NCBI RefSeq assembly: GCF_014204815.1 | Contig: NZ_JACHMC010000001.1 | Coordinates: forward strand, 434,001 to 498,000 | Length of the DNA: 64,000 nt | Reading direction: 5' to 3' | Source: Micrococcus flavus | GTDB taxonomy: Bacteria; Actinomycetota; Actinomycetes; Actinomycetales; Micrococcaceae | Shown here: piece by piece, positions 1,100 through 54,723 of the stretch | Position numbering within the stretch: the stretch's first letter is position 1 | How the letters are laid out: each line of letters opens with the position of its first letter | Notes under the pieces: generated by a model | Told to the model about the DNA's origin: nothing | Database searches by the model: none | Seen by the model: only the letters and a program-made list of their open reading frames with translations | Program-made: the position numbers and the translations under genes

Positions 1100-1730
1100 A
1101 TGACCCAACCCAGCCGTACCACCGTGGCTTCCATCACCTTTGAGGGAGACCATCGGCTCACCGCCCTGCAGGCCCTCTCGGTCGACCGTCTCTTCGAACT
1201 CGATGAGCTGGAGGAGTATCTGATCGTCCTCAATGGCCGGGACAACAGCGACCTGCGGGTTACTCTCGCCGGGCTGCTCTACGGTGCTGTCAGTGCCGAG
1301 CTGTGGGATCGTATCCGGTTCCTGGTCCCGGCGGACGTCCCGCGCGGAGGCGATGGCCAGGGATGGCATGGACAGCAAGCACTCAAACTGGGCCTGGCCG
1401 ATCTCGTCCGCACCGATACTTACCTTATGCTAGACGGCAAAAATCATTTCGTGCGTCCAGCCGGGGTAGCGGACTTCTACGAGACGGGACGCCCGAAGAC
1501 CGTATGGTCTGACACCTCGCCGTACTGGGATAAGTATGTAAGGGCATCCCTAGATGCTTTCGACGTCCTCACGGACGAGAACGCGCGGCGGATGATGCCC
1601 ACCACGACGCCATACCTCTTCATCAGCGAAGAAGTACGTCGCACTATTGACGGGCTTGAGTCGAAGTACGGAATACCCTTGAAGTCGGCCATGGGTAAGA
1701 CGAAGTGGGGGACCGAGTTCTTCCTTTACT
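1100..1730 (+). pseudogene. DUF6492-like protein, 5' fragment, interrupted by an ISL3-family element
   Basis: This is the N-terminal 210 residues of a gene cut by the insertion sequence at 1731-3173. Removing the element and one copy of the 8-bp target duplication joins 1100-1730 to 3182-3447 in one open frame of 298 residues, so the gene was intact before insertion. Residues 90-120 (WHGQQALKLGLADLVRTD, then LMLDGKNHF) resemble DUF6492, a group of glycosyltransferase-A-like proteins; this is recognition from memory. As it stands, translation runs six codons into the left inverted repeat and stops at 1754-1756. The sequence is visibly less GC-rich than its neighbours, with codons such as aaa, tta and gat, which suggests acquisition by transfer. 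Function is unknown; a role in surface polysaccharide is only a guess. Confidence 0.75.
1723..1730. repeat. Target site duplication, left copy
   Basis: CCTTTACT abuts the left end of the insertion sequence and is repeated exactly at 3174-3181. Eight base pairs is the usual duplication length for ISL3-family elements. Confidence 0.93.
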
Positions 1731-3173
1731 GGCCCTTCACAGATGAGCATGGGTAGGGGTCTTGCGCCACGGCCGGTGTCCGCCGGCGGCGAGCAGGGCG
1801 CGTAGGCGGTAGTTGTCGAAGTTCCGGAAGCCGCGGGCGACCCGGCGCATCGTCTCGATGACCCCGTTCACGGCCTCGGTGGGCCCGTTCGAGGCCCCGG
1901 CGGTGTCGAAGTAGGCCAGGATCGCGGCCTTCCACCGGCGTAAGGTCCGCCCGAGCCGGGCGATCTCCGGGATCGGGCAGGACGGGAAGGCGGCAAGGAT
2001 CTCGGCGACCAGCCGGCGGCCGGTCTCGGGGCGGGCGTGGTAGACCGCGCGCAGCTTCTGGTAGCAATGCCAGGCAAGGGTGACCTCGTGGTGCGGGTCC
2101 CCGGCCTCGAGCTTGGTGTTGAGCCGGGTGATCTGTTTGGCGGTGAGGTGCTCGGCGCCGATCTGCAGGGTGCGGCGGATCCCGTAGAGCGGGTCCCCGG
2201 CCCGGCCCCGGTGGCCCAGAGTGTCCTGCTGCACCCGACGACGCACCTCGTCCACGACCTGCCCGCCGAGCTTGACCACATGGAAGGCGTCGAGAACGGT
2301 GATCGCCTCCGGGAGTTCGTCGCGGATGGCGTTGGCGTAACCGTGGAACGGATCCAGCGTCGCCGTGCGGATCCCGCTCGTGAACGCCGGCCCCTGCTCG
2401 GTGAGCCAGTCGCCGTAGGCCGCCCCCGTGCGCCCCTTGACCAGGTCCAGCAGTCGTGCCCGGGGCCGGCCGTCCTCGCCGCGGGAGTGGTCCACGATCC
2501 CGGTGACCAGCCCAGTGCCGGGTGGGCCCACGTGGCGCCAGACGTGCTCGTCCACGCCCAGGGCGTCCACCCCGGCCAGCCGATCCTCCGCGGCCAGCTG
2601 GGCCTCGATGACTGGAGTGATGGCGTCCCAGACGGTGTTCCAGGCGACCCCGAGCATCTCGGCCAGGGCGGAGACCGCGATGTCATGGCAGCGCAGCTGC
2701 GTCACCGCCCAAGCAATCGCGCGGGTGGTGAGCTTGGCCCGCGGCGCGGCCAGCTCGTGGACCTCACTGAACGTCACGACCTCGCAGGCGTCCTCCCGGC
2801 ACCTGAAGATCCGCTTGCGCCACACCACCCGCACGGGCACCCCAGCGCAGGGCAGATCGTGGAGCACGACCTCCCGGCGGCCGTGGCCGGTGGCGAGCAC
2901 CCCGCAGGACGGGCACCCCACCAGCGTCGGAGAAGTCTCCACCACCACGGTGAACGAGCGTGGTCCGCGTTCCACGGCCCTGACATGGACGTCGGGCAGG
3001 TCGAAGAGCGCGCACGCGGGCGCGCAGATAGCATGAGACACGTCGAGGCCTTCATGGATCGGGTTGCTTGGTCGCTACCCATCCTGGAGGCCTCGACCTC
3101 CACCCAGACCTCACAACACACCCCTCGAGACGCCCACGCGCACACCGCTACCCATGCTCATCTGTGAAGGGCC
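1731..3173 (-). mobile_element. Complete ISL3-family insertion sequence (1443 bp)
   Basis: The ends are perfect 26-bp inverted repeats at 1731-1756 and 3148-3173 (both read GGCCCTTCACAGATG inward), flanked by identical 8-bp target duplications at 1723-1730 and 3174-3181. One transposase gene fills the element and its stop codon lies inside the left repeat. Perfect ends, an intact transposase and an undegraded target duplication suggest a recent and possibly still mobile copy. It disrupts the DUF6492-like gene. Confidence 0.95.
1737..3041 (-). CDS. ISL3-family transposase
   Basis: A 434-residue DDE transposase that excises and reinserts its own element. The N-terminal zinc ribbon shows CPSC at about residues 43-46 with two further cysteines at 81 and 86. 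A helix-turn-helix-like stretch covers residues 105-140. Likely catalytic acidic residues are D164 (GVDEHVW), D230 (TLDPFHGY) and E390 (SNGPTEAVNGVI), the expected ISL3 pattern. Length and architecture match full-length family members, and no frameshift or stop is seen. Its last codons are formed by the left inverted repeat. It is the only gene in the element. Confidence 0.95.
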   Translation of the reverse strand: MSHAICAPACALFDLPDVHVRAVERGPRSFTVVVETSPTLVGCPSCGVLATGHGRREVVLHDLPCAGVPVRVVWRKRIFRCREDACEVVTFSEVHELAAPRAKLTTRAIAWAVTQLRCHDIAVSALAEMLGVAWNTVWDAITPVIEAQLAAEDRLAGVDALGVDEHVWRHVGPPGTGLVTGIVDHSRGEDGRPRARLLDLVKGRTGAAYGDWLTEQGPAFTSGIRTATLDPFHGYANAIRDELPEAITVLDAFHVVKLGGQVVDEVRRRVQQDTLGHRGRAGDPLYGIRRTLQIGAEHLTAKQITRLNTKLEAGDPHHEVTLAWHCYQKLRAVYHARPETGRRLVAEILAAFPSCPIPEIARLGRTLRRWKAAILAYFDTAGASNGPTEAVNGVIETMRRVARGFRNFDNYRLRALLAAGGHRPWRKTPTHAHL

Positions 3174-3181
3174 CCTTTACT
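3174..3181. repeat. Target site duplication, right copy
   Basis: CCTTTACT directly after the right inverted repeat, identical to 1723-1730. Confidence 0.93.
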
Positions 3182-3447
3182 ACGCCCACCTGGTGGCCGA
3201 GGACAAGTTGGGTCTTTATGTCGATGCCCCCAGTCCGGTACGGACTCTCTTCACCTCGTGGCCTCAGGACCCCGCGGCGGTGCTGCGGATGATCGCAGAG
3301 GCGACGTCGGGGGAGGTTGTCATGTTCGGCCTGCACCGGAATCGCCTTTCCCAGCTGACTGAGGAGCAACGAAACGCAGTCACATCGATGTGGCACCAGG
3401 ACCTGCTCAAGCCATGGGAACAGGGAGACTGGTTCATGGAGCAGTGA
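3174..3447 (+). pseudogene. DUF6492-like protein, 3' fragment beyond the insertion sequence
   Basis: This is the C-terminal part, about 90 residues, of the gene whose 5' part is at 1100-1730. In the pre-insertion frame it reads on from FFLY as YAHLVAEDKLGLYVD and ends with WEQGDWFMEQ at a TGA (3445-3447). An open frame running out of the element's right end (ATG at 3064) happens to be in register, so an outward promoter could express this fragment. It is unlikely to be functional alone because the LDGKNHF region lies in the other half. The interval 3448-3565 that follows contains no recognisable gene. Confidence 0.75.
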
Positions 3448-3565
3448 GCGCGGGTGCGCCCATAGCAGCAACGACGCTCACGCAGTGTGTCGGGTGCGCA
3501 GGCGTCGTCGTGATGATGCCCGATGCCGACTTGGCCCGGGATCATCCGGTCGGCTGGGTCACCTC

Positions 3566-5026
3566 TCAGCGGGAGGACGCCCAGCCCTCCGGCCCGGGCG
3601 AGCCAGCCTCGTATGCCTCGAGCGGGACTAGGCCGGCGTCCCACGCCCGCCGCACCGGCTCCACGATCCGCCAGCACTCCTCGGCCACGTCCCCGCGCAC
3701 GGAGAGCAGCGGGTCGCCCAGGATGATCCCCCGCAGCACCTCTCCGTAGGCGTCGCGGGAGGCCGGCGGCAGGTCGGCGTCCAGCGCGGCCCGGTCGGCG
3801 TCGAACGGCTCCCCGGTGCCGTCCACGGACAGCTCGAGGGCCAGGCGGGCCGGATCCAGACCGACGCGCACGCGGTCCCGGCCCGCGGTGGCGTCCATGC
3901 CCTCCGGCACGAACCGCGGCGGGCGGAGCGTCAGCACGACCTCCCACCGGTGCTCGCCGAGGGCCTTCCCCGAGCGCAGCGTGAACGGCACCCCGGCCCA
4001 CCGCTCGGTGTCCACCGCCAGCACGAGCTCCGCGAGCGTCTCGGTTCCGCGGTCCGGGTCCACGCCGTCCTCGTCCGCGTAGGAGGGCACCTGCCGCCCC
4101 CGCACGGCGCCGGCCGTGTACCGGGCGCGGCGCGTGTGGGCGGCGACGTCGTCCTCCCACACGTGGGTCGCGCGCAGGGCGGCGGCGACGGCGTCGTGCA
4201 GGTCCACGGAGCGGATCTCGGCGGGGGTCTCGAGCACGGTCATGGCGAGCACGGCCAGCAGGTGGGACTGGTGCATGTCCAGCATCGCCCCGGTGGCGTC
4301 GTAGAACCCGGCGCGGCCCTCCAGGGCGAGCGTCTCGTCCGCCCGGATCTCCACGGCCTCCACGTCCTCGGCGCTCCACACCCCGCCGATGGCCCGGTTG
4401 AGGGTGCGGATGCCCAGCAGGGCCGTCACCATGGCCAACCCCAGGAAGTGGTCCACGCGGAACACCCGCTCCTTGCCGGCCACCTCCGCCACGGCGGCGT
4501 TCAGGTCCCGGGCGCTCTCCAGCCCGGTCCCGAACGGCTTCTCCAGGGCGAGCCGCAGCCCGTCCGGCAGATCCGCCATGCTCCGCAGCGCGTCCACTGA
4601 CCGCACGGTCACGGCCGGCGCGAGGGCGAAGTACAGCACCGACACCGCCCCCTCGCCCGCGCGCTCGCGGGCCACGTCGAACAGAGCACGGAGACCGTCG
4701 GCGTCGGTGGCGTCGGCCGTGCGCCAGACGGCCCGCCCCACGATCCCGGCCCGGATGTCGTCGGGCACGTCGGCGCCGTCGAGAGCCTCCGCCACGAGCT
4801 CCCGCCACCGCTCGTTGCCCATCTCCGTGATCGACGAGCCCACGAGCGTCAGCTCCGGCAGCTGTCCGGCCGCGAACGCGGTCGCCAGCCCGGGCAGGAG
4901 CAGGCGGGACGTGAGGTCGCCGCTCGCGCCGAGGATGATCAGCGCCACGGGTCGCCCGTCCGCGGGTTGGGCGCCGCGTGCCGCTCCGGAGGGACGGTCC
5001 TGGGGTCGGGTCGTCTGCTGGGTCAT
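3566..5026 (-). CDS. zwf: Glucose-6-phosphate dehydrogenase family protein, divergent paralogue
   Basis: A 486-residue member of the G6PD family, which oxidises glucose 6-phosphate to 6-phosphogluconolactone with NAD(P). The Rossmann motif GASGDL is at residues 33-38, the EKPFG motif at 162-166, and the general-base histidine at about H255 (MHQSHLLAVL). The signature RIDHYLGKE is altered to RVDHFLGLA at 190-198, so the lysine that normally contacts the substrate phosphate is replaced by leucine. This suggests a changed substrate, possibly unphosphorylated glucose or another hexose derivative. It is not in an operon with 6-phosphogluconate or transaldolase genes as a housekeeping zwf usually is. 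It is divergent from a GH15 glucan hydrolase gene. A GGGA sequence precedes the ATG at 5026. Confidence 0.8.
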   Translation of the reverse strand: MTQQTTRPQDRPSGAARGAQPADGRPVALIILGASGDLTSRLLLPGLATAFAAGQLPELTLVGSSITEMGNERWRELVAEALDGADVPDDIRAGIVGRAVWRTADATDADGLRALFDVARERAGEGAVSVLYFALAPAVTVRSVDALRSMADLPDGLRLALEKPFGTGLESARDLNAAVAEVAGKERVFRVDHFLGLAMVTALLGIRTLNRAIGGVWSAEDVEAVEIRADETLALEGRAGFYDATGAMLDMHQSHLLAVLAMTVLETPAEIRSVDLHDAVAAALRATHVWEDDVAAHTRRARYTAGAVRGRQVPSYADEDGVDPDRGTETLAELVLAVDTERWAGVPFTLRSGKALGEHRWEVVLTLRPPRFVPEGMDATAGRDRVRVGLDPARLALELSVDGTGEPFDADRAALDADLPPASRDAYGEVLRGIILGDPLLSVRGDVAEECWRIVEPVRRAWDAGLVPLEAYEAGSPGPEGWASSR

Positions 5027-5060
5027 CGGGGAGGTCCCTTCGCGCGGCGGTCCGTGGTGC

Positions 5061-5083
5061 GCCGGCCCGGGGGCCGGGCCGGC
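5061..5083. promoter_or_regulatory. Palindrome between zwf and the GH15 gene
   Basis: GCCGGCCCGG and its reverse complement flank a GGG loop in the divergent intergenic region. It may be a regulator site, or an mRNA hairpin in the zwf leader. No function is established. Confidence 0.35.
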
Positions 5084-5176
5084 GTCGTCATGCCCCAGTC
5101 TCCCGTCTGCGCTCCCGCCGGGCCAGGCGGGGACGTCGCCTGGCGCCCGTCCGGCGGAACGTGGTGGGCTGGGGAC

Positions 5177-6985
5177 ATGACGACCTCACCCCTGATCGAC
5201 GACCTCGCCTACCTCTCCGACCAGCACGCCGGAGCCCTGGTGACCCGGGACGGGACCGTCGTCTGGCTCTGCCTGCCCCGGTACGACTCGCCCGCGGTGT
5301 TCACGTCCCTGCTCGGGGAGCCCGAGCACGGCCAGTGGTCCCTGCGCATCGCGGGCGGCGAGGTGGTGGAGCGCGCGTACGTGCCCGGCACGCTCGTCCT
5401 GCGCACGCACTGGCGGGGCCCGGAGGGGGAGGCCGAGGTCCTCGACCTCATGCCGCTCGGCGAGGAGGCCGACGACGACGTCCGGGCCGACCTGGTGCGG
5501 ATCGTCCGGTGCACCGCGGGCACGGTCCGCCTGGAGCAGGAGCTCCGTCTGCGGAACGACTACGGCGAGGTGGTGCCGTGGGTCCACCGGGGGGCGGACG
5601 CCCACGGGGAGCCGGCGCTGATCGCCGTGGCCGGCGGGGACGGCGTCGTGTTCCACGGCGGCGGATTCGCGGCGGACGGCGCGGCGCACCGGTCCGTCCA
5701 GGAGCTGGCGGCCGGGCAGGCGGAGGCCGCCTCTCTGGCCTGGTTCCCCTCGTGGGAGACGCCGCCGGCCGCCCCGGACGCGGAGCAGGCCCGCGAGCGC
5801 ACGGAGGCGGACTGGCTGCAGTGGCTCGGCGGCCCCGTGGCGCGGGGGCCGCGGGCCGAGCGCGTGGAGCGGTCCCTGCTGACGCTGCGCGGTCTCACGC
5901 ACCGGGAGACCGGCGGCATCGTGGCGGCGGCCAGCACCTCCCTGCCGGAGGAGATCGGCGGGGTCCGCAACTGGGACTACCGGTACGTGTGGCTGCGGGA
6001 CACGGCCCTGACGCTGGAGGCGCTGATCGCCCACGAGCACGTGGAGGAGGCGACCCTGTGGCGGGACTGGCTGCTGCGCGCCGTCGCTGGCGACCCGGAG
6101 GAGCTGAAGATCATGTACACGCTCGCGGGAGAGCGGCACATGCCCGAGTTCGAGCTGCCGCACCTGCCCGGGTACGAGGGCTCGCGGCCGGTGCGCGTGG
6201 GCAACGGTGCGGCCGGGCAGTGGCAGGCGGACGTCGTCGGGGAGGTGATGATCGCCCTCGAGACCCTGCGCGAGGCCGGCGTCGAGGAGACCCGCGGCTC
6301 GTGGGCTCTCCAGCGGCGCCTGGTGGACCAGGTGCTGGCCCACTGGGACACCCCGGAGCACGGCCTGTGGGAGATGCGCGGGGAGCCCGCGTTCTTCACG
6401 CACGGCCGCGTCATGATGTGGGCCGCCCTGGACCGGGCGGTGCACGCCGTCGAGCGCCACGGCCAGGACGCGCCCGCGGAGGAGGTGGACCACTGGCGTG
6501 AGCGGCGCGAGGCCCTGCGTGCGGAGGTGCTGGAGCGCGGCGTCGACGGGACCGGCGCCTTCACGCAGACCTACGGATCCACCGAGACGGACTCGTCCCT
6601 GCTGCAGATCGCCCACACCGGCTTCGTCCCGTTCGACGACCCGCACATGCTGGCCACCGTCGCCCGGATCGAGGAGGACCTGCTCTCCCCGACGGGCCTC
6701 GTCCACCGCTACCGGATGACGGGCACGGACGGCCTGCCGGGCGAGGAGGCCCCGTTCGTCCTGTGCTCGTACTGGCTCGTGGAGCAGTACGCGCGCTCAG
6801 GCCGCACGGAGGACGCCGAGCGGCTCATGGAACGCCTGGACGAGTGCTCCTCCGACTTGCACCTGCTCGCCGAGGAGTACGACGACGAGGCCGGCCGCAT
6901 GCTCGGTAACGTCCCGCAGGCCTTCAGCCACCTGGGCCTGATCCGCGCCGCGGACGCGCTCGAGGACGTGCGGGGCGAGGGCTGA
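5177..6985 (+). CDS. Glycoside hydrolase family 15 protein (glucoamylase/trehalase-like)
   Basis: A 602-residue cytosolic GH15 enzyme of the actinobacterial trehalase/glucoamylase-like group, which releases glucose from alpha-glucans or trehalose by inversion. The N-terminal beta-sandwich covers about residues 1-220 and the (alpha/alpha)6 barrel follows. RNWDYRYVWLRD at 264-275 is the family's first catalytic-acid region. A second acidic cluster (AEEYDDEAGRMLGN) near residue 565 holds the likely catalytic base. No signal peptide is present. Upstream in-frame sequence is open only because of high GC; ATG 5177 begins the conserved N-terminus. The divergent dehydrogenase paralogue may act on the released sugar. 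Its stop abuts that of ptrB, which converges on it. Trehalase versus glucoamylase cannot be settled from sequence alone. Confidence 0.85.
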   Translation: MTTSPLIDDLAYLSDQHAGALVTRDGTVVWLCLPRYDSPAVFTSLLGEPEHGQWSLRIAGGEVVERAYVPGTLVLRTHWRGPEGEAEVLDLMPLGEEADDDVRADLVRIVRCTAGTVRLEQELRLRNDYGEVVPWVHRGADAHGEPALIAVAGGDGVVFHGGGFAADGAAHRSVQELAAGQAEAASLAWFPSWETPPAAPDAEQARERTEADWLQWLGGPVARGPRAERVERSLLTLRGLTHRETGGIVAAASTSLPEEIGGVRNWDYRYVWLRDTALTLEALIAHEHVEEATLWRDWLLRAVAGDPEELKIMYTLAGERHMPEFELPHLPGYEGSRPVRVGNGAAGQWQADVVGEVMIALETLREAGVEETRGSWALQRRLVDQVLAHWDTPEHGLWEMRGEPAFFTHGRVMMWAALDRAVHAVERHGQDAPAEEVDHWRERREALRAEVLERGVDGTGAFTQTYGSTETDSSLLQIAHTGFVPFDDPHMLATVARIEEDLLSPTGLVHRYRMTGTDGLPGEEAPFVLCSYWLVEQYARSGRTEDAERLMERLDECSSDLHLLAEEYDDEAGRMLGNVPQAFSHLGLIRAADALEDVRGEG

Positions 6986-46353: not shown

Positions 46354-46865
46354 TGAGCGAGTCCACCGCCGCCCGTCCCGTCCTGGCCGAGCTGGAGAAG
46401 GGGCAGGCCATCGGCTCCCGCCGGGTCCCGCTGACCCGTGCGGACCTGATCGCCTACGCCGCCGCCTCGGGAGACCACAACCCCATCCACTGGAACCAGA
46501 CCTTCGCCGAGTCGGTCGGCCTGCCGGGTGTGATCGCCCACGGCATGCTCACCATGGGCGCTGCCGTGCAGCTGGTCACCGACTGGGCGGGGGACCCGGG
46601 CGCCGTCGTGGACTACCAGACCCGCTTCACCGCCATGGTCCCGGTCGAGGACACCACGGGCCGCATCGGCGACGACGGCGCGCCCGTGCCCGGGTCCGTC
46701 CTGGAGGTCTCGGGCGTCGTGGGCGCGGTGGACGCCGCGGCCGGGACGGTGCGGATCGACCTCACCGTGAACGACCCCGCACAGGACAAGCCCCGCGTTC
46801 TGACGAAGGCGCAGGCCGTGGTGCGCCTGGCGGAGCCCGAGGAGACCGAGGAGGAGCACGCGTGA
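46353..46865 (+). CDS. MaoC-like dehydratase, HadB-type catalytic subunit
   Basis: A 170-residue hot-dog dehydratase with the catalytic hydratase motif ASGDHNPIHWNQTFA (about 34-48), where Asp and His perform the reaction. GVIAHGMLTMG follows, as in HadB. It should form a heterodimer with the preceding protein and act on (3R)-hydroxyacyl thioesters. Overlaps on both sides (TGATG upstream, GTGA into murB) show tight translational coupling. Residues 90-125 form a longer loop than in HadB. Confidence 0.87.
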   Translation: MSESTAARPVLAELEKGQAIGSRRVPLTRADLIAYAAASGDHNPIHWNQTFAESVGLPGVIAHGMLTMGAAVQLVTDWAGDPGAVVDYQTRFTAMVPVEDTTGRIGDDGAPVPGSVLEVSGVVGAVDAAAGTVRIDLTVNDPAQDKPRVLTKAQAVVRLAEPEETEEEHA

Positions 46866-48010
46866 GCGAGCGCCTGGCCGACCACACCACCACCCGCGTC
46901 GGCGGGCCCGCCCGCGCGTGGGTGACCGCCCGCACCGAGGCCGAGGCCCTCGAGGCCGTGCGCGCCGCGGACGCCGCCGGCGACCCCCTGTTCGTCCTCG
47001 GGGGCGGCTCCAACACCCTGATGGCGGACGCCGGCTTCGACGGCACCGTCGTGCGTCTGGCCTTCGACGGGATCGAGGTGCTCCGCGAGGACGGCGGGGA
47101 CGTCCTCGTCCGCGTGGCCGCCGGCCACGCCTGGGACGAGGCCGTGGCCTGGACCGTGGAGCAGGGCCTCGGCGGGGTCGAGGCGCTCTCCGGGATCCCC
47201 GGATCCGCGGGCGCCACCCCCGTCCAGAACGTCGGGGCGTACGGGGCGGACGTGTCCCAGGTGCTCGTGTCCCTGCGCGCGTGGGACCGGCAGGCCCCCG
47301 GGGGAGGGGCCGTGGTGGAGCTGGGCGCGGACGAGCTGCGCTTCGGGTACCGCGACTCGATCATCAAGCGCTCGATGGTGGAGGGCGGCGCCCCGAGTCC
47401 GCGGTGGATCGTCCTCTCGATCGACCTGCGTCTGCGCCGCGCCGCCGCCGGCGCCGAGCCCACGGCCCCCGTGCGCTACGCCCAGCTGGCCCGGGCCCTC
47501 GGCGTGGAGGAGGGCTCGCACGCCACCCTGCGGACCGTCCGGGAGCAGGTGCTGGCGCTGCGTGCGTCCAAGGGCATGGTGTGGGACGAGGCGGACCGGG
47601 ACACGTGGTCCACCGGCTCCTACTTCACCAATCCCATCGTCCCCGCCGCGGTGCGCGCGTCCCTGCCGGAGGGCGCCCCGGCGTTCGCCGCCGGCACCGC
47701 CGAGGACGGCACGGAACTCGTGAAGCTGTCGGCCGCGTGGCTGATCGACCACGCCGGCTTCGGCAAGGGCTTCGGCCTGCCGGACGCGGAACCCCGCGAG
47801 GGGGACGTGGACGGCCGCGGCCCGGACGGCGCCGGCCTGGCCGGGGGCCGCGCGTCGCTGTCCACCAAGCACACGCTCGCCGTGACCAACCGGGGGGACG
47901 CGTCCACGGAGGACGTGCTCACCATCGCACGCGCGGTGCGGGACGGGGTGAAGGCCCGCTACGGCGTGGACCTGCACCACGAGCCGATGATCATCGGCAC
48001 CGCCCTCTGA
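46862..48010 (+). CDS. murB: UDP-N-acetylenolpyruvoylglucosamine reductase MurB
   Basis: A 382-residue FAD enzyme that reduces UDP-GlcNAc-enolpyruvate to UDP-MurNAc in peptidoglycan synthesis. It opens LADHTTTRVGGPARAWVTA, has LGGGSNTLMADAGFDGTVV (about 41-59), ALSGIPGSAGATPVQNVGAYG (about 112-132), GYRDSIIKR and the catalytic serine in GSYFTNPIV (near 253). The C-terminal STKHTLAVTNRGDA block is typical of type I enzymes. The GTG start overlaps the preceding stop, so peptidoglycan and hot-dog proteins share a transcript. Confidence 0.93.
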   Translation: MSERLADHTTTRVGGPARAWVTARTEAEALEAVRAADAAGDPLFVLGGGSNTLMADAGFDGTVVRLAFDGIEVLREDGGDVLVRVAAGHAWDEAVAWTVEQGLGGVEALSGIPGSAGATPVQNVGAYGADVSQVLVSLRAWDRQAPGGGAVVELGADELRFGYRDSIIKRSMVEGGAPSPRWIVLSIDLRLRRAAAGAEPTAPVRYAQLARALGVEEGSHATLRTVREQVLALRASKGMVWDEADRDTWSTGSYFTNPIVPAAVRASLPEGAPAFAAGTAEDGTELVKLSAAWLIDHAGFGKGFGLPDAEPREGDVDGRGPDGAGLAGGRASLSTKHTLAVTNRGDASTEDVLTIARAVRDGVKARYGVDLHHEPMIIGTAL

Positions 48011-48015
48011 CCCCA

Positions 48016-48155
48016 CCCCCCCGTTTTCGTTCGGGAAACGGCGCACCCCGGGGCGTTTTCGTTCGGGAAACAGCACGTCCGGCCGGCCAATGGCACCGTT
48101 TCGCGAACGAAAACGTGCATTGCGCCGCCGTTTCCCGAACGAAAGCGCCGGGGGG
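48016..48155. repeat. Nested inverted-repeat cluster with four copies of an 18-bp core
   Basis: Four copies of CGTTTTCGTTCGGGAAAC or close variants: direct at 48022-48039 and 48054-48071, inverted at about 48097-48114 and 48130-48147. Copies one and four extend to GGCGCA/TGCGCC and C-rich/G-rich outer flanks, and copies two and three pair inside them, giving a hairpin within a hairpin. AT-content is far above the surroundings. It fills the gap between converging murB and asd, so it may terminate both. It looks like a REP- or MITE-like unit. Confidence 0.8.
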
Positions 48156-49328
48156 TCAGAGGTTGCCGGTCGCGATCATGAGCATGCGGCGCAGCGGCTC
48201 CGCGGCGCCCCACAGCAGCTGGTCGCCCACCGTGAACGCCGAGAGGTACTCCGGGCCCATCTTCATCTTCCGCAGCCGCCCCACGGGGATCTGCAGGGTG
48301 CCGGAGGCGGCCACCGGGGTGAGGTCGCGCATCGACGCCTCCTTCTCGTTCGGCACCACCTGCGCCCACGCGGTGCCGTTCGCCACGATCTCGGTGATCT
48401 CGTCGATCGGCACGTCCCGGGTGAGCTTGAGGGTCAGCGCCTGGGAGTGGGAGCGCATGGCGCCCACGCGCACGCACAGCGAGTCGAACGGGATGCGCTC
48501 CTCCCCGCGCAGGCCGAGCACCTTGTTGGTCTCGTCGTAGGCCTTCTGCTCCTCGCGGGACACGCCGTTCCCGAGGTCCGCGTCGATCCACGGGATGAGT
48601 GAGCCCCCCAGGGGCACCCCGAAGCGGCTGGCGTCCAGTCCGCCGCGCTGCAGCTCGGTGACCTTGCGGTCGATCTCGAGGATCGCCGACGACGGGTCCG
48701 CCAGCTCCTCCGCCACGACGCCGCCCAGGGCGGCGTACTGGGTCAGCAGCTCCCGCATGTGCTGGGCGCCGCCGCCGGAGGCCGCCTGGTAGGTCATGGC
48801 GGTGCCCCACTCCACGAGCCCCTCGCGGAACAGCCCGCCCAGGCCCATGAGCATGCAGGACACGGTGCAGTTGCCGCCGATGAACTCCTTCACGCCGCCG
48901 GCCAGGGCCGCGTCGATCACGGGGCGGTTCACCGGGTCCAGCACGATCACGGAGGAGTCCTCCATGCGCAGGGTGGAGGCGGCGTCGATCCAGATCCCGT
49001 CCCAGCCGGCGGCGCGCAGCCGCGGGTACACGTCCTTCGTGTAGTCGCCGCCCTGGGCGGTCACGATGATCGGCAGGGCCTTCAGCACGTCCACGTCGAA
49101 GGCGTCCTGCAGGGCGCCGGGGTCCCCGGCCATGCCGTCGAAGGTCGGCGCGGGCCCGCCCGCGGCGGAGGTGGAGAAGAAGACGGGCCGGATCCGGGCG
49201 AAGTCGCCCTCCTCGGCCATGCGCTGCATCAGGACGGAGCCCACCATGCCGCGCCAGCCCACGATGCCCACGGTGGGCACGGCGGCCGGGTCGGCGGCGG
49301 TCACGGCGGCGGAGGCGGTGTCAGTCAT
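48156..49328 (-). CDS. asd: Aspartate-semialdehyde dehydrogenase
   Basis: A 390-residue enzyme reducing aspartyl phosphate to aspartate semialdehyde for lysine, methionine, threonine and diaminopimelate. NADP binding [17 protein letters not shown] starts near residue 21. The catalytic cysteine is C154 in [17 protein letters not shown], and the catalytic His is probably in [13 protein letters not shown] near residue 285. The WRGMVGSVL and GGNCTVS blocks are those of the Escherichia coli type rather than the shorter type of mycobacteria. The Ala-rich first 17 residues are an extension. TAGCCT ends 7 nt before the ATG. Confidence 0.92.
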
Positions 49329-49335
49329 GCCGTCC

Positions 49336-49341
49336 AGGCTA
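49336..49341 (-). promoter_or_regulatory. -10 hexamer of asd
   Basis: TAGCCT, 7 nt before the ATG at 49328. Confidence 0.55.
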
Positions 49342-49352
49342 CCGGTCGCCCG

Positions 49353-49574
49353 TCAGCGGCCGCGGGACCTCTTCCGCCGGTTCCAGGTGATGAGACCGCC
49401 CACCGCGGACAGCTGCGTGAGGACCAGCAGGAACACCAGACCGCCCACCGTCTTCCCCTGCAGCACGAGGATCAGGCCCAGCACGGCGCACGCGAACGCG
49501 AGCACCGGGAACGCCACGAGCGCCAGGAACGTCAGGGCCTGCGGGGTGAGCAGGCCGGGACCGTCGTCGTTCAT
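49353..49574 (-). CDS. Small two-helix membrane protein
   Basis: A 73-residue protein with two hydrophobic helices (about 13-38 and 42-61) and a basic C-terminus (NRRKRSRGR). It is the last gene of the thyA-folA operon; its ATG overlaps the folA stop (ATGA). Function unknown. Coupling and normal codon use support expression. Confidence 0.7.
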   Translation of the reverse strand: MNDDGPGLLTPQALTFLALVAFPVLAFACAVLGLILVLQGKTVGGLVFLLVLTQLSAVGGLITWNRRKRSRGR

Positions 49575-52801: not shown

Positions 52802-54723
52802 GCGGCCGGCCCCGTCGCCGAGGGCTCCATGGTCCGGTGGGCTTCGACCTCCGCCCGGGACGGCTCCTCGCCCGCGGTCCGGCCGGTGCGCGGGTCCACG
52901 GACATCCCGGGCAGGAAGGCGAGGAGCAGGCCCAGTCCGAGCAGGAGCCAGGGCTGCTGCCACGTCTCGCCGGTCGCCCACCCCGGGGAGCCGGCGGCCA
53001 CCACACGTGCCTGATGCAGCAGCGGCCAGGCCTGACCGGCGAACGCCACCACGGCGCCGGTGCCCAGGGCCAGGAACCGGTTCACGGCCGAGCGGCGCAG
53101 CACCGCGTCCTCGACGGCGTCGGCCCGGGTCAGCGGACCGCGTCGACCCGCCCCGTGCGCGGCCGCGAGGGCGAGCAGTGTCACCACCGCCACGGGCAGG
53201 AGCATGCCGGCGGCGGCCGCCGCGTCCACCCCGCGCGCCTGGACGTGGCCGATGACCAGGGGCAGCTGGTGGTGGGCCGTCCATGCCGCCGCCGGCACGG
53301 CCACGACGGCGGCCAGCGCCAGCAGGACCCGGCGCCACCGGGACGCGGCCCCCAGTCCGGGCCCGGCCGGCGCGGGAGTGGTGTGGTGGCGCCGCACCCG
53401 CACCTCGGCGGCCGCCAGCACGAGCATGCCCAGTAGGAATGGTCCCGTCGTGACCAGTGCCGACGCCGAGGTCCGGGCCGCCGCGCCGTCACCGGCAACC
53501 AGCAGGAACCCGCCCGTCGACAGGAGCAGGGTGCTCAGGAGCGTGAGGGAAAGAGCTGTCATGCCCGAGCGATCCCGCAGCGCCCGGACGGCCCGCGCCG
53601 TGCCCGGGGCTGCGGACGGGGCAGGCGTCCAGGGCCGCCCGTCCAGGCCTGCCGCGCCGGGGGCCTCGGCGAGGACGGCCAGCGCGGGGGAGCGCCACAG
53701 TGCGGCCGCGATCAGCGTCACGATCATCAGTCCCACGGCGGGGAGCGCGAGGGAGGAGACCGACGTCGAGACGCCGGCGACCGCCTGGGACGCCTCCGGC
53801 CATCGCTCCCCGGTGGGGTCGAGGGCGTGGCCGCGGGCGGTGCGCTCCAGGCGGTCCCACGTCCACACGACGCTGAGGCCGATGCCCACGACCGCCACGA
53901 GGGCGGTCCGCAGGATCCGGTTGACCGCCACGCGCCGCACGGCCAGGTCCGTGGCGGGGTGCAGTCCCGCGAGGACGGGGCGGCGCAGCACGGCCCGGAC
54001 GGCCAGCACCGTCGTGGCCACCCATCCGGCCAGCACCAGGAGGAGGATTCCGGCGATCGCCGCGCCGGACTGGGCGCCGTCGACGGCGACCACCTGGGTC
54101 TGCCACTCGGCCGGCCCCGCAGGGAGCGCGTTCCCGGCCTGGGCGACGTCCACCTCCATGGTGATGCGCCGCGCGGGGACCGCCGCCAGGCCGGAGGCCG
54201 CCAGCGCCGCGACGGCGCCGGCGGACGCGAGGGTCGCCGCGGCGCAGGTCCACGTCAGTGCGCGGGGCAGGACGTCCCGGAGCTCGAGTGCGGTGAGGCG
54301 TCCCTGCCGGACGGGACCCGTGGACCGCGGCCAGGTGTGCTGGCCGATCCACCAGACCAGCAGGAACAGCGCGGCCGGCGCCAGGGCCGTCAGGAGGGGC
54401 CAGAGCGCCGGCTCGGGGAACGGCAGGGCCTCGACCCCGGTCACCCGGGTGACCAACGGGTCCAGCACCACCGCCCCCGGGCTGTCGGGCGCCGGCCTGT
54501 CGGCGCCGGCGTCGAGGACGCCGTCGGCGGGCTCCTGCCGCGGGGAGCAGCTCACCAGGAAGGCGATGAGCGCCACCATCAGGCCGTGGACGCGCGCCGA
54601 GCCCACCGGACTGGCGCCGCGCGGGGTCCAGGCGAACCAGCGCAGCAGCGCGTAGAGGACGGCGAGCCCGAGGCCGGCGGGCGCGAGCAGGGCGAGGGCT
54701 GCGAGGGGACTGACCGTGGACAT
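52798..54723 (-). CDS. Large polytopic membrane protein, module 1
   Basis: A 641-residue protein with some 12-14 hydrophobic segments, apparently an internal duplication of the 324-residue protein of module 2. The block VRRVAVNRILRTALVAVVGI near residue 264 recurs as LRRSAVNRFLALGTGAVVAF near 546. Each is preceded by a helix-loop and followed by two helices and a short cytosolic tail. No ATPase or enzyme motif is visible. It is coupled by a 4-bp overlap to the GntR gene. No function can be assigned; a stress-responsive membrane system is a guess. Confidence 0.75.
   Translation of the reverse strand: MSTVSPLAALALLAPAGLGLAVLYALLRWFAWTPRGASPVGSARVHGLMVALIAFLVSCSPRQEPADGVLDAGADRPAPDSPGAVVLDPLVTRVTGVEALPFPEPALWPLLTALAPAALFLLVWWIGQHTWPRSTGPVRQGRLTALELRDVLPRALTWTCAAATLASAGAVAALAASGLAAVPARRITMEVDVAQAGNALPAGPAEWQTQVVAVDGAQSGAAIAGILLLVLAGWVATTVLAVRAVLRRPVLAGLHPATDLAVRRVAVNRILRTALVAVVGIGLSVVWTWDRLERTARGHALDPTGERWPEASQAVAGVSTSVSSLALPAVGLMIVTLIAAALWRSPALAVLAEAPGAAGLDGRPWTPAPSAAPGTARAVRALRDRSGMTALSLTLLSTLLLSTGGFLLVAGDGAAARTSASALVTTGPFLLGMLVLAAAEVRVRRHHTTPAPAGPGLGAASRWRRVLLALAAVVAVPAAAWTAHHQLPLVIGHVQARGVDAAAAAGMLLPVAVVTLLALAAAHGAGRRGPLTRADAVEDAVLRRSAVNRFLALGTGAVVAFAGQAWPLLHQARVVAAGSPGWATGETWQQPWLLLGLGLLLAFLPGMSVDPRTGRTAGEEPSRAEVEAHRTMEPSATGPAA

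Follow-up and report, generated by a model that had tools for sequence, protein, structure and literature searches.

The MIRU of Mycobacterium tuberculosis are tandem intergenic units that are oriented with genes and tied to stop codons; their units are longer than those considered in this report, and they overlap start or stop codons. The GTAG and CGTC classes of REP, with the related REPIN, are described in the portions of PMC3733652 available to us as quasi-palindromic sequences of 20–40 bp, which are dispersed, differ in version between species and in some cases lie in ORFs; the paper contains no word that begins with Micrococc or Actinobacter. The Rickettsia palindromic elements (RPE) are sequences of 105–146 bp with terminal inverted repeats (PMC2229807, accessible portion). 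Below, we compare with these and with the DUS of Neisseriaceae a repeat that lies between the genes murB and asd of a Micrococcus genome, and of which we found no account in the open-licence Micrococcus literature searched.

The window analyzed here is the whole stretch of 64,000 nt at G000:C1:434001-498000; 33 of its long ORFs served to train the simple codon-usage caller with which genes around the arrays were predicted. The convergent genes murB (UDP-N-acetylmuramate dehydrogenase, 46862..48010, + strand; NF010478, E 1.9e-124) and asd (aspartate-semialdehyde dehydrogenase, 48156..49328, - strand; TIGR01745, E 1.5e-169) are separated by a 145-bp gap that is filled by 2 direct and 2 inverted copies of CGYTTTCGTTCGGGAAACGG. 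On the murB side, unit 1 (CGTTTTCGTTCGGGAAACGG; 48022..48041, +) begins 12 bp past the murB stop and unit 2 (48054..48073, +) lies 32 bp from unit 1; on the asd side, unit 1 (CGCTTTCGTTCGGGAAACGG; 48128..48147, -) lies 9 bp past the asd stop and 32 bp from its neighbour, unit 2 (CGTTTTCGTTCGCGAAACGG; 48096..48115, -). The 18-base core is exact in both + units and has one mismatch in each - unit, and these 4 core matches in the window compare with 0 in 100 dinucleotide shuffles of it, so that the arrangement of copies claimed in an earlier note on this DNA was confirmed. The stop codons are at 48010(+) for murB and 48156(-) for asd, and each array is oriented as its own gene. The nested inverted repeat (48016..48153, assigned to no strand) is two separate tandem pairs, one per stop codon, that face each other.

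The hairpin within a hairpin that had been proposed for this gap was likewise borne out by its complementarity and predicted folding. The inverted arms, 48016-48071 and 48098-48153, are 79% complementary over 56 nt, and RNA of the segment 48008-48158 folded strongly from either strand, with -90.3 kcal/mol (z -6.9) for + and -91.6 kcal/mol (z -5.8) for -. The composition, which had been called sharply different from the surroundings, is so for the units (GC 0.50–0.60 against 0.746 for the window) and less so for the stretch 48016-48155 as a whole (0.66). A scan of 46800-49400 for intrinsic terminators of the T-tract type (GC hairpin plus T run) gave none, a scan for sigma-70 promoters found none near the murB-asd gap, and at gathering score an Rfam scan of the window returned four tRNAs and nothing else.

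At up to 3 mismatches, the core occurs at 47 sites in the 2.55-Mb G000 genome, where a reversed-pattern control gave 0, and at 71 and 58 sites in the related genomes G006 and G002, respectively (G001 to G010 are other genomes of the genus). The genome-wide count proposed in the earlier note thus turned up a core that is neither restricted to this locus nor, as described below, part of an ordinary terminator conserved in the gap of all relatives. We conclude that the murB-asd site is two members of a dispersed, turning-over, Micrococcus-wide repeat family. A member is a tandem pair, in some cases a single unit or a set of 3 or 4, and its asymmetric units of ~20 bp have starts 31–33 bp apart; the unit consists of CGYTTTCG followed by a version-specific half, a two-unit array spans 52–53 bp, and terminal inverted repeats are absent from single arrays. 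In G000, G006 and G002 together, all 71 same-strand neighbour distances below 200 bp were 31 (1), 32 (38) or 33 bp (32), and all 19 opposite-strand neighbours within 200 bp were inward-facing. These 71 distances were counted unconditionally; array-based spacing counts used a linking rule of 30–35 bp and include one spacing of 34 bp. Three helical turns of DNA measure ~31.5 bp, and we therefore read the phase of 31–33 bp as that of a putative paired binding site. The protein-binding array suggested in the earlier note, with a putative protein, agrees with this fixed phase. The cores of neighbouring units were 89% alike (102 neighbour pairs, four genomes) and the spacers (11 nt after the unit) 60% alike, as compared with 44% for spacers of random array pairs, which suggests that spacer length is held while spacer sequence drifts. 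Also, 3 of the 4 units at 239799-239934 of G000, which include both orientations, carry the local variant TGYAAG, as though conversion had taken place at this locus, and near 144492 a lone unit is followed by other imperfect repeats (CTGTCGAGATGCARCGA, twice), with no called stop codon ahead of it.

The family is placed largely with respect to the ends of genes. In G000, 18 of 25 arrays start 7–27 bp past a same-strand stop codon (the rule applied was within 60 bp), another 5 are found in sense within ORFs, and the remaining 2 are placed otherwise. The same rule, sense and within 60 bp of the stop, held for 12 of 14 arrays in G006 and 10 of 12 in G002, sampled at 9 and 7 loci rather than over whole genomes. 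It held for 30 of 57 arrays in 20 sampled stretches of G007, where 6 others had an opposite-strand stop only, 1 was antisense in an ORF and 20 lay elsewhere; some of the misses were 60–110 bp past a same-strand stop, and others lay between divergent genes (9 arrays). Of the 108 arrays of the four genomes, 56 were in convergent gaps, where 49 were nearer the stop of their own gene and 7 nearer that of the facing gene. Co-directional gaps contained 33 (24 in sense and 9 antisense), divergent gaps 11 and ORFs 7 (5 in sense and 2 antisense), and the last array lay at an edge; among the 96 that could be classified, 78 were in sense or nearer their own stop, and 18 were not. Convergent gaps made up 8,621 of the 31,710 intergenic bases, a rough background since the stretches were chosen around arrays. 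No common function emerged among the 22 flanking or host proteins scanned, which belong to unrelated families (one had no Pfam match and one was matched solely in Pfam). The origin-proximal half of the chromosome, with reference to dnaA, holds 91 of 109 clusters: 15 of 18 in G000, 21 of 27 in G006, 24 of 27 in G002 and 31 of 37 in G007, with one-sided binomial p values of 0.0038, 0.003, 2.5e-5 and 2.1e-5, respectively. This count took about one site per array, used 100 of the 111 G007 sites and was made post hoc with gene content uncontrolled.

Arrays inside ORFs were distinguished by their spacing: in G000, a spacing of 33 bp was found in 6 of 6 cases within ORFs but in 2 of 20 among the arrays that follow stop codons (Fisher p 1.2e-4), and the 5 ORF arrays have all their 11 units in one codon phase, with a translation of roughly AFVRET. 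The four host proteins scanned against Pfam were an ABC transporter, a heavy-metal P-type ATPase, TilS and one without a match; in the ABC transporter, the array lies near codon 404, between Pfam domains at 53-362 and 460-608. The array in this gene (53993) is a coding insertion present in G000 and G006 and missing from G003 and G009. By these features the ORF arrays look like DNA inserted into proteins under reading-frame selection, which suggests that some in-frame repeats of Micrococcus proteins are DNA-level insertions and not protein motifs. In the P-type ATPase gene (G000 82528-82613), each of five species has 2–3 in-frame units in versions that differ, those of G000 and G003 being alike, those of G002 and G006 partly alike and that of G009 different. 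The versions at this one ORF position (82613) look more like in-place rewriting than independent insertion.

When the 25 G000 arrays were folded singly, the median z was -0.64, and 6 of 25 reached z <= -2. Strong separate hairpins (z -3.9 to -5.7) follow 4 of the 18 stop-codon arrays, those at 212033, 318842, 593027 and 2296151. We also considered an RNA hairpin within the unit, a possible stem of six pairs: among 210 units (TTCGGG/TGCGGG-type only), 156–203 can pair at each position, one candidate pair reads A-C in 35, and 0–3 were changed on both sides. We regard this hairpin as a candidate structure, mostly pairable but without covariation, in arrays that singly fold mostly like shuffles.

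The contents of the murB-asd gap vary among relatives. G006 has the same four-unit arrangement, and G007 has three + units and one - unit of the TGCGGG version (3–5 mismatches); by eye, G003 and G009 carry the version CGYTTTCGCTGACGCAACACGCG, the G009 contig covering the asd side only. G002 has a hairpin with one weak unit match, G010 and G008 have in common a perfect hairpin of ~27 bp (by eye) without family units, G005 has several copies of an unrelated direct repeat of ~65 bp (GAACCAGAAGCTTCGGCTG..., by eye), and the gaps of G004 and G001 are short and without units. Elsewhere, presence and absence of members could be followed between species. At 212033, a 56-bp segment directly after TGACC in G000 is missing from G009 and G006, and a downstream terminator hairpin is found in all three; because the segment varies and the hairpin stays, the module is separable from the terminator at this locus. 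At 1601359, G009 has no unit, G006 one, and G000 and G003 two, and at 318842, G003 has neither the pair nor the hairpin. The target duplications that the earlier note had proposed to look for in such comparisons were not seen: four empty-site alignments, judged by eye and with ambiguous GC-rich flanks, gave no clear case.

Beyond the arrays at murB-asd, 2308580 and 2309141, we compared 18 of the 25 G000 arrays with their orthologs (239934, 2146061 and 2296343 were left out), labelling each unit by the nearest of seven consensi at up to 5 mismatches; labels at 4–5 mismatches are weak, and the 'same' group spans four sub-versions. With these labels, the 17 usable orthologs of G003 comprised 9 of the same version group, 5 of another, 1 mixed and 2 with none, and the 17 of G009 comprised 3, 7, 2 and 5, respectively; for G002 (14 usable) the numbers were 9, 0, 2 and 3, and for G006 (11 usable) 8, 0, 0 and 3. 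At 2308580 and 2309141, the G003 ortholog, as in the murB-asd gap, has the version other than that of G000, in one case behind a stop codon and in the other inside an ORF. The exact CTGACG/CTCGCG version occurs 10 times in G009, 8 times in G003, once in G000 and not in the eight other genomes. Exact generic units were most numerous in G007 (111), followed by G006 (62), G002 (38), G000 and G005 (22 each), G003 (8), G010 (7), G004 and G009 (5 each) and G008 (4), with 0 for G001. Among the 100 of 111 G007 sites listed, the TGCGGG version predominates, and several versions coexist in one genome. Related species often retain the layout at orthologous places in a different sequence version.

The family appears to be a property of the genus. 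Of the 11 genus genomes, 10 contained the generic pair pattern, versus 1 of 186 others of the family, sampled evenly, and the lone match among the 186 looks unrelated; G001 gave no family match in the generic-unit, generic-pair or CTGACG/CTCGCG-version scans. A stricter exact pair was found in 5 of 11 genus genomes and in 0 of 48 outside the genus, and an exact-pair scan of named genomes gave no match. The exact 19-mer occurred in 12 named stretches, 7 of them Micrococcus, including M. lacusdianchii, M. lylae and Micrococcus sp. EYE_212. Occurrence in other genera was rejected, as none of the five non-Micrococcus contigs with the exact 19-mer has a partner unit; a phage origin was rejected likewise, two viral contigs having an exact 17-mer and neither a partner unit within 5 mismatches.

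In the aggregate, these comparisons of DNA sequence show a family with a fixed phase, a sense bias, mostly post-stop placement, presence or absence between species, and differing versions at the same addresses. We give about even chances to an explanation in which the pair is recognized by one putative factor and is spread or rewritten through it. The two units would then form a paired recognition site, with one sequence-specific factor reading both at a distance of some three helical turns, and the family would be spread or overwritten through the pair by some form of recombination or transposition. Insertions would survive mainly between stop codon and terminator, and would be tolerated in protein loops if their length were divisible by three; upon a change of the factor or of a master copy, a new version would replace the old one, locus by locus. 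At murB-asd, where two members meet face to face, the hairpin probably has a secondary role in terminating transcription from both sides. Several observations count against this explanation. A freely settling repeat should not favour the sense strand, so that the bias of 78 versus 18 is unexpected. In G007 the stop rule is looser (30 of 57) and 9 arrays lie in divergent gaps; G001 gave no match, and the generic units of G004, G008 and G010 number 4–7 per genome. Target duplications were not visible by eye in the four empty-site alignments, and the versions at 82613 look rewritten in place more than independently inserted. Neither a transposase or recombinase nor a binding protein came to light, Y1_Tnp being the sole family searched. 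We consider rather doubtful a further extension, by which the pairs are recognition sites of a putative factor whose specificity drifts between Micrococcus species, the genomic set being rewritten at conserved addresses with the three-turn geometry fixed, and would act as a species-specific self-mark at gene ends, possibly tied to natural competence or to the way in which the origin region of the chromosome is organised.

Other explanations account for parts of these observations. By one of them, the repeat would be a transcript-level 3' UTR element, in which two protein- or sRNA-binding sites between stop and terminator affect stability or termination; the sense placement 7–27 bp past the stop in 18 of 25 G000 arrays, the strong separate hairpins behind 4 of 18 stop-codon arrays and a unit stem pairable in 156–203 of 210 units per pair agree with it, but the stem is without covariation (0–3 of 210), arrays mostly fold like shuffles, some lie in ORFs or between divergent genes, and the flanking genes have no obvious function in common, and we regard it as unlikely. 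The repeat might also be an ordinary bidirectional terminator of murB and asd, in favour of which the whole gap folds strongly from both strands and, by eye, most relatives have some inverted repeat there. Yet the same pairs are also found one-sided and inside ORFs, most single arrays fold no more strongly than shuffles and a T-tract terminator was not found. The double terminator of the earlier note is plausible where the arrays face each other, at murB-asd, but less so for single arrays, given their mostly weak folding, and at 212033 the module was gained or lost while the terminator hairpin persisted. An ordinary terminator is insufficient as an account of the whole family, and we judge this explanation extremely improbable.

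By analogy with DUS dialects, the pair might instead be a self-recognition sequence for natural transformation, read by a surface or competence protein, with each species favouring its own version. Micrococcus luteus is naturally transformable (PMC8467076 and PMC4322843, available portions), and species-biased versions at conserved addresses, together with inverted pairs at gene ends, parallel the dialects as described in the accessible part of PMC3630211. However, the 47, 71 and 58 sites and the 0–111 exact generic units per genome, in which versions are not summed, stand against 1543–5918 DUS per genome in that part of PMC3630211, and the phrase 'uptake sequence' is absent from PMC8467076 and PMC4322843. 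Several versions per genome also speak against uptake. To our knowledge, a strong sense bias and a fixed tandem phase are not familiar features of DUS, and we think this origin of the repeat quite unlikely. A nucleoid protein might also bind the repeat as a site that organises the chromosome around its origin, which would fit the origin-proximal position of 91 of 109 clusters in four genomes and a spacing of 32–33 bp, about three helical turns; but this explanation leaves the sense bias and the stop-codon placement unexplained, the sites turn over between close species, and the origin bias was spotted post hoc, without a control for gene content. We hold it to be very unlikely.

With regard to known systems, the family shares with MIRU the occurrence of tandem intergenic units in an actinobacterium, oriented with genes and linked to stop codons, and differs in having ~20-bp cores with diverging spacers. 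Like RPE, which in the accessible portion of PMC2229807 are small repeats located in intergenic DNA as well as in frame within protein-coding genes, it includes in-frame ORF copies (5 G000 arrays) with absence in relatives at 53993; unlike RPE, its arrays are direct pairs of ~52 bp, spaced by 33 bp in ORFs, and lie mostly behind stop codons. It resembles DUS in having species versions with a common core and inverted pairs linked to terminators (PMC3630211, in part) and in a naturally competent host genus (PMC8467076 and PMC4322843, in part), and differs from them in far fewer copies, a tandem phase, a sense bias and several versions per genome. With REP and REPIN it has in common small dispersed units, versions that differ by species and some copies in ORFs (PMC3733652, in part). 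Mobilisation of the RAYT/REP type was rejected: Y1_Tnp (PF01797) was found in 0 of 11 genomes at E <= 0.001 by a search that was positive in 5 of 14 named controls, yet CGTC REPs, too, seem to be without a dedicated transposase in the available text of PMC3733652. Head-to-tail dimers are absent, under-represented or negligible in REPs according to the same text, whereas in the Micrococcus family they are the rule, at 31–33 bp. Of the REP/MITE-like unit that the earlier note had suggested, dispersal and presence or absence between species were upheld; a Y1 transposase, terminal inverted repeats of single arrays and target duplication were all unseen, and the units run head to tail. The filled, empty and re-written sites form a natural series in which the spread of such repeats, and the possible part of a co-evolving binding protein in driving it, could be studied. 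In summary, the family is of the dispersed small-repeat kind and resembles several known kinds without showing all of their tested defining features: most of the small repeats compared here are either dimers in inverted orientation or longer elements that end in terminal inverted repeats, and the Micrococcus family is distinct from them as a direct pair, held in a near-invariant phase of 31–33 bp and tied to the direction of transcription, whose versions vary at the same addresses.
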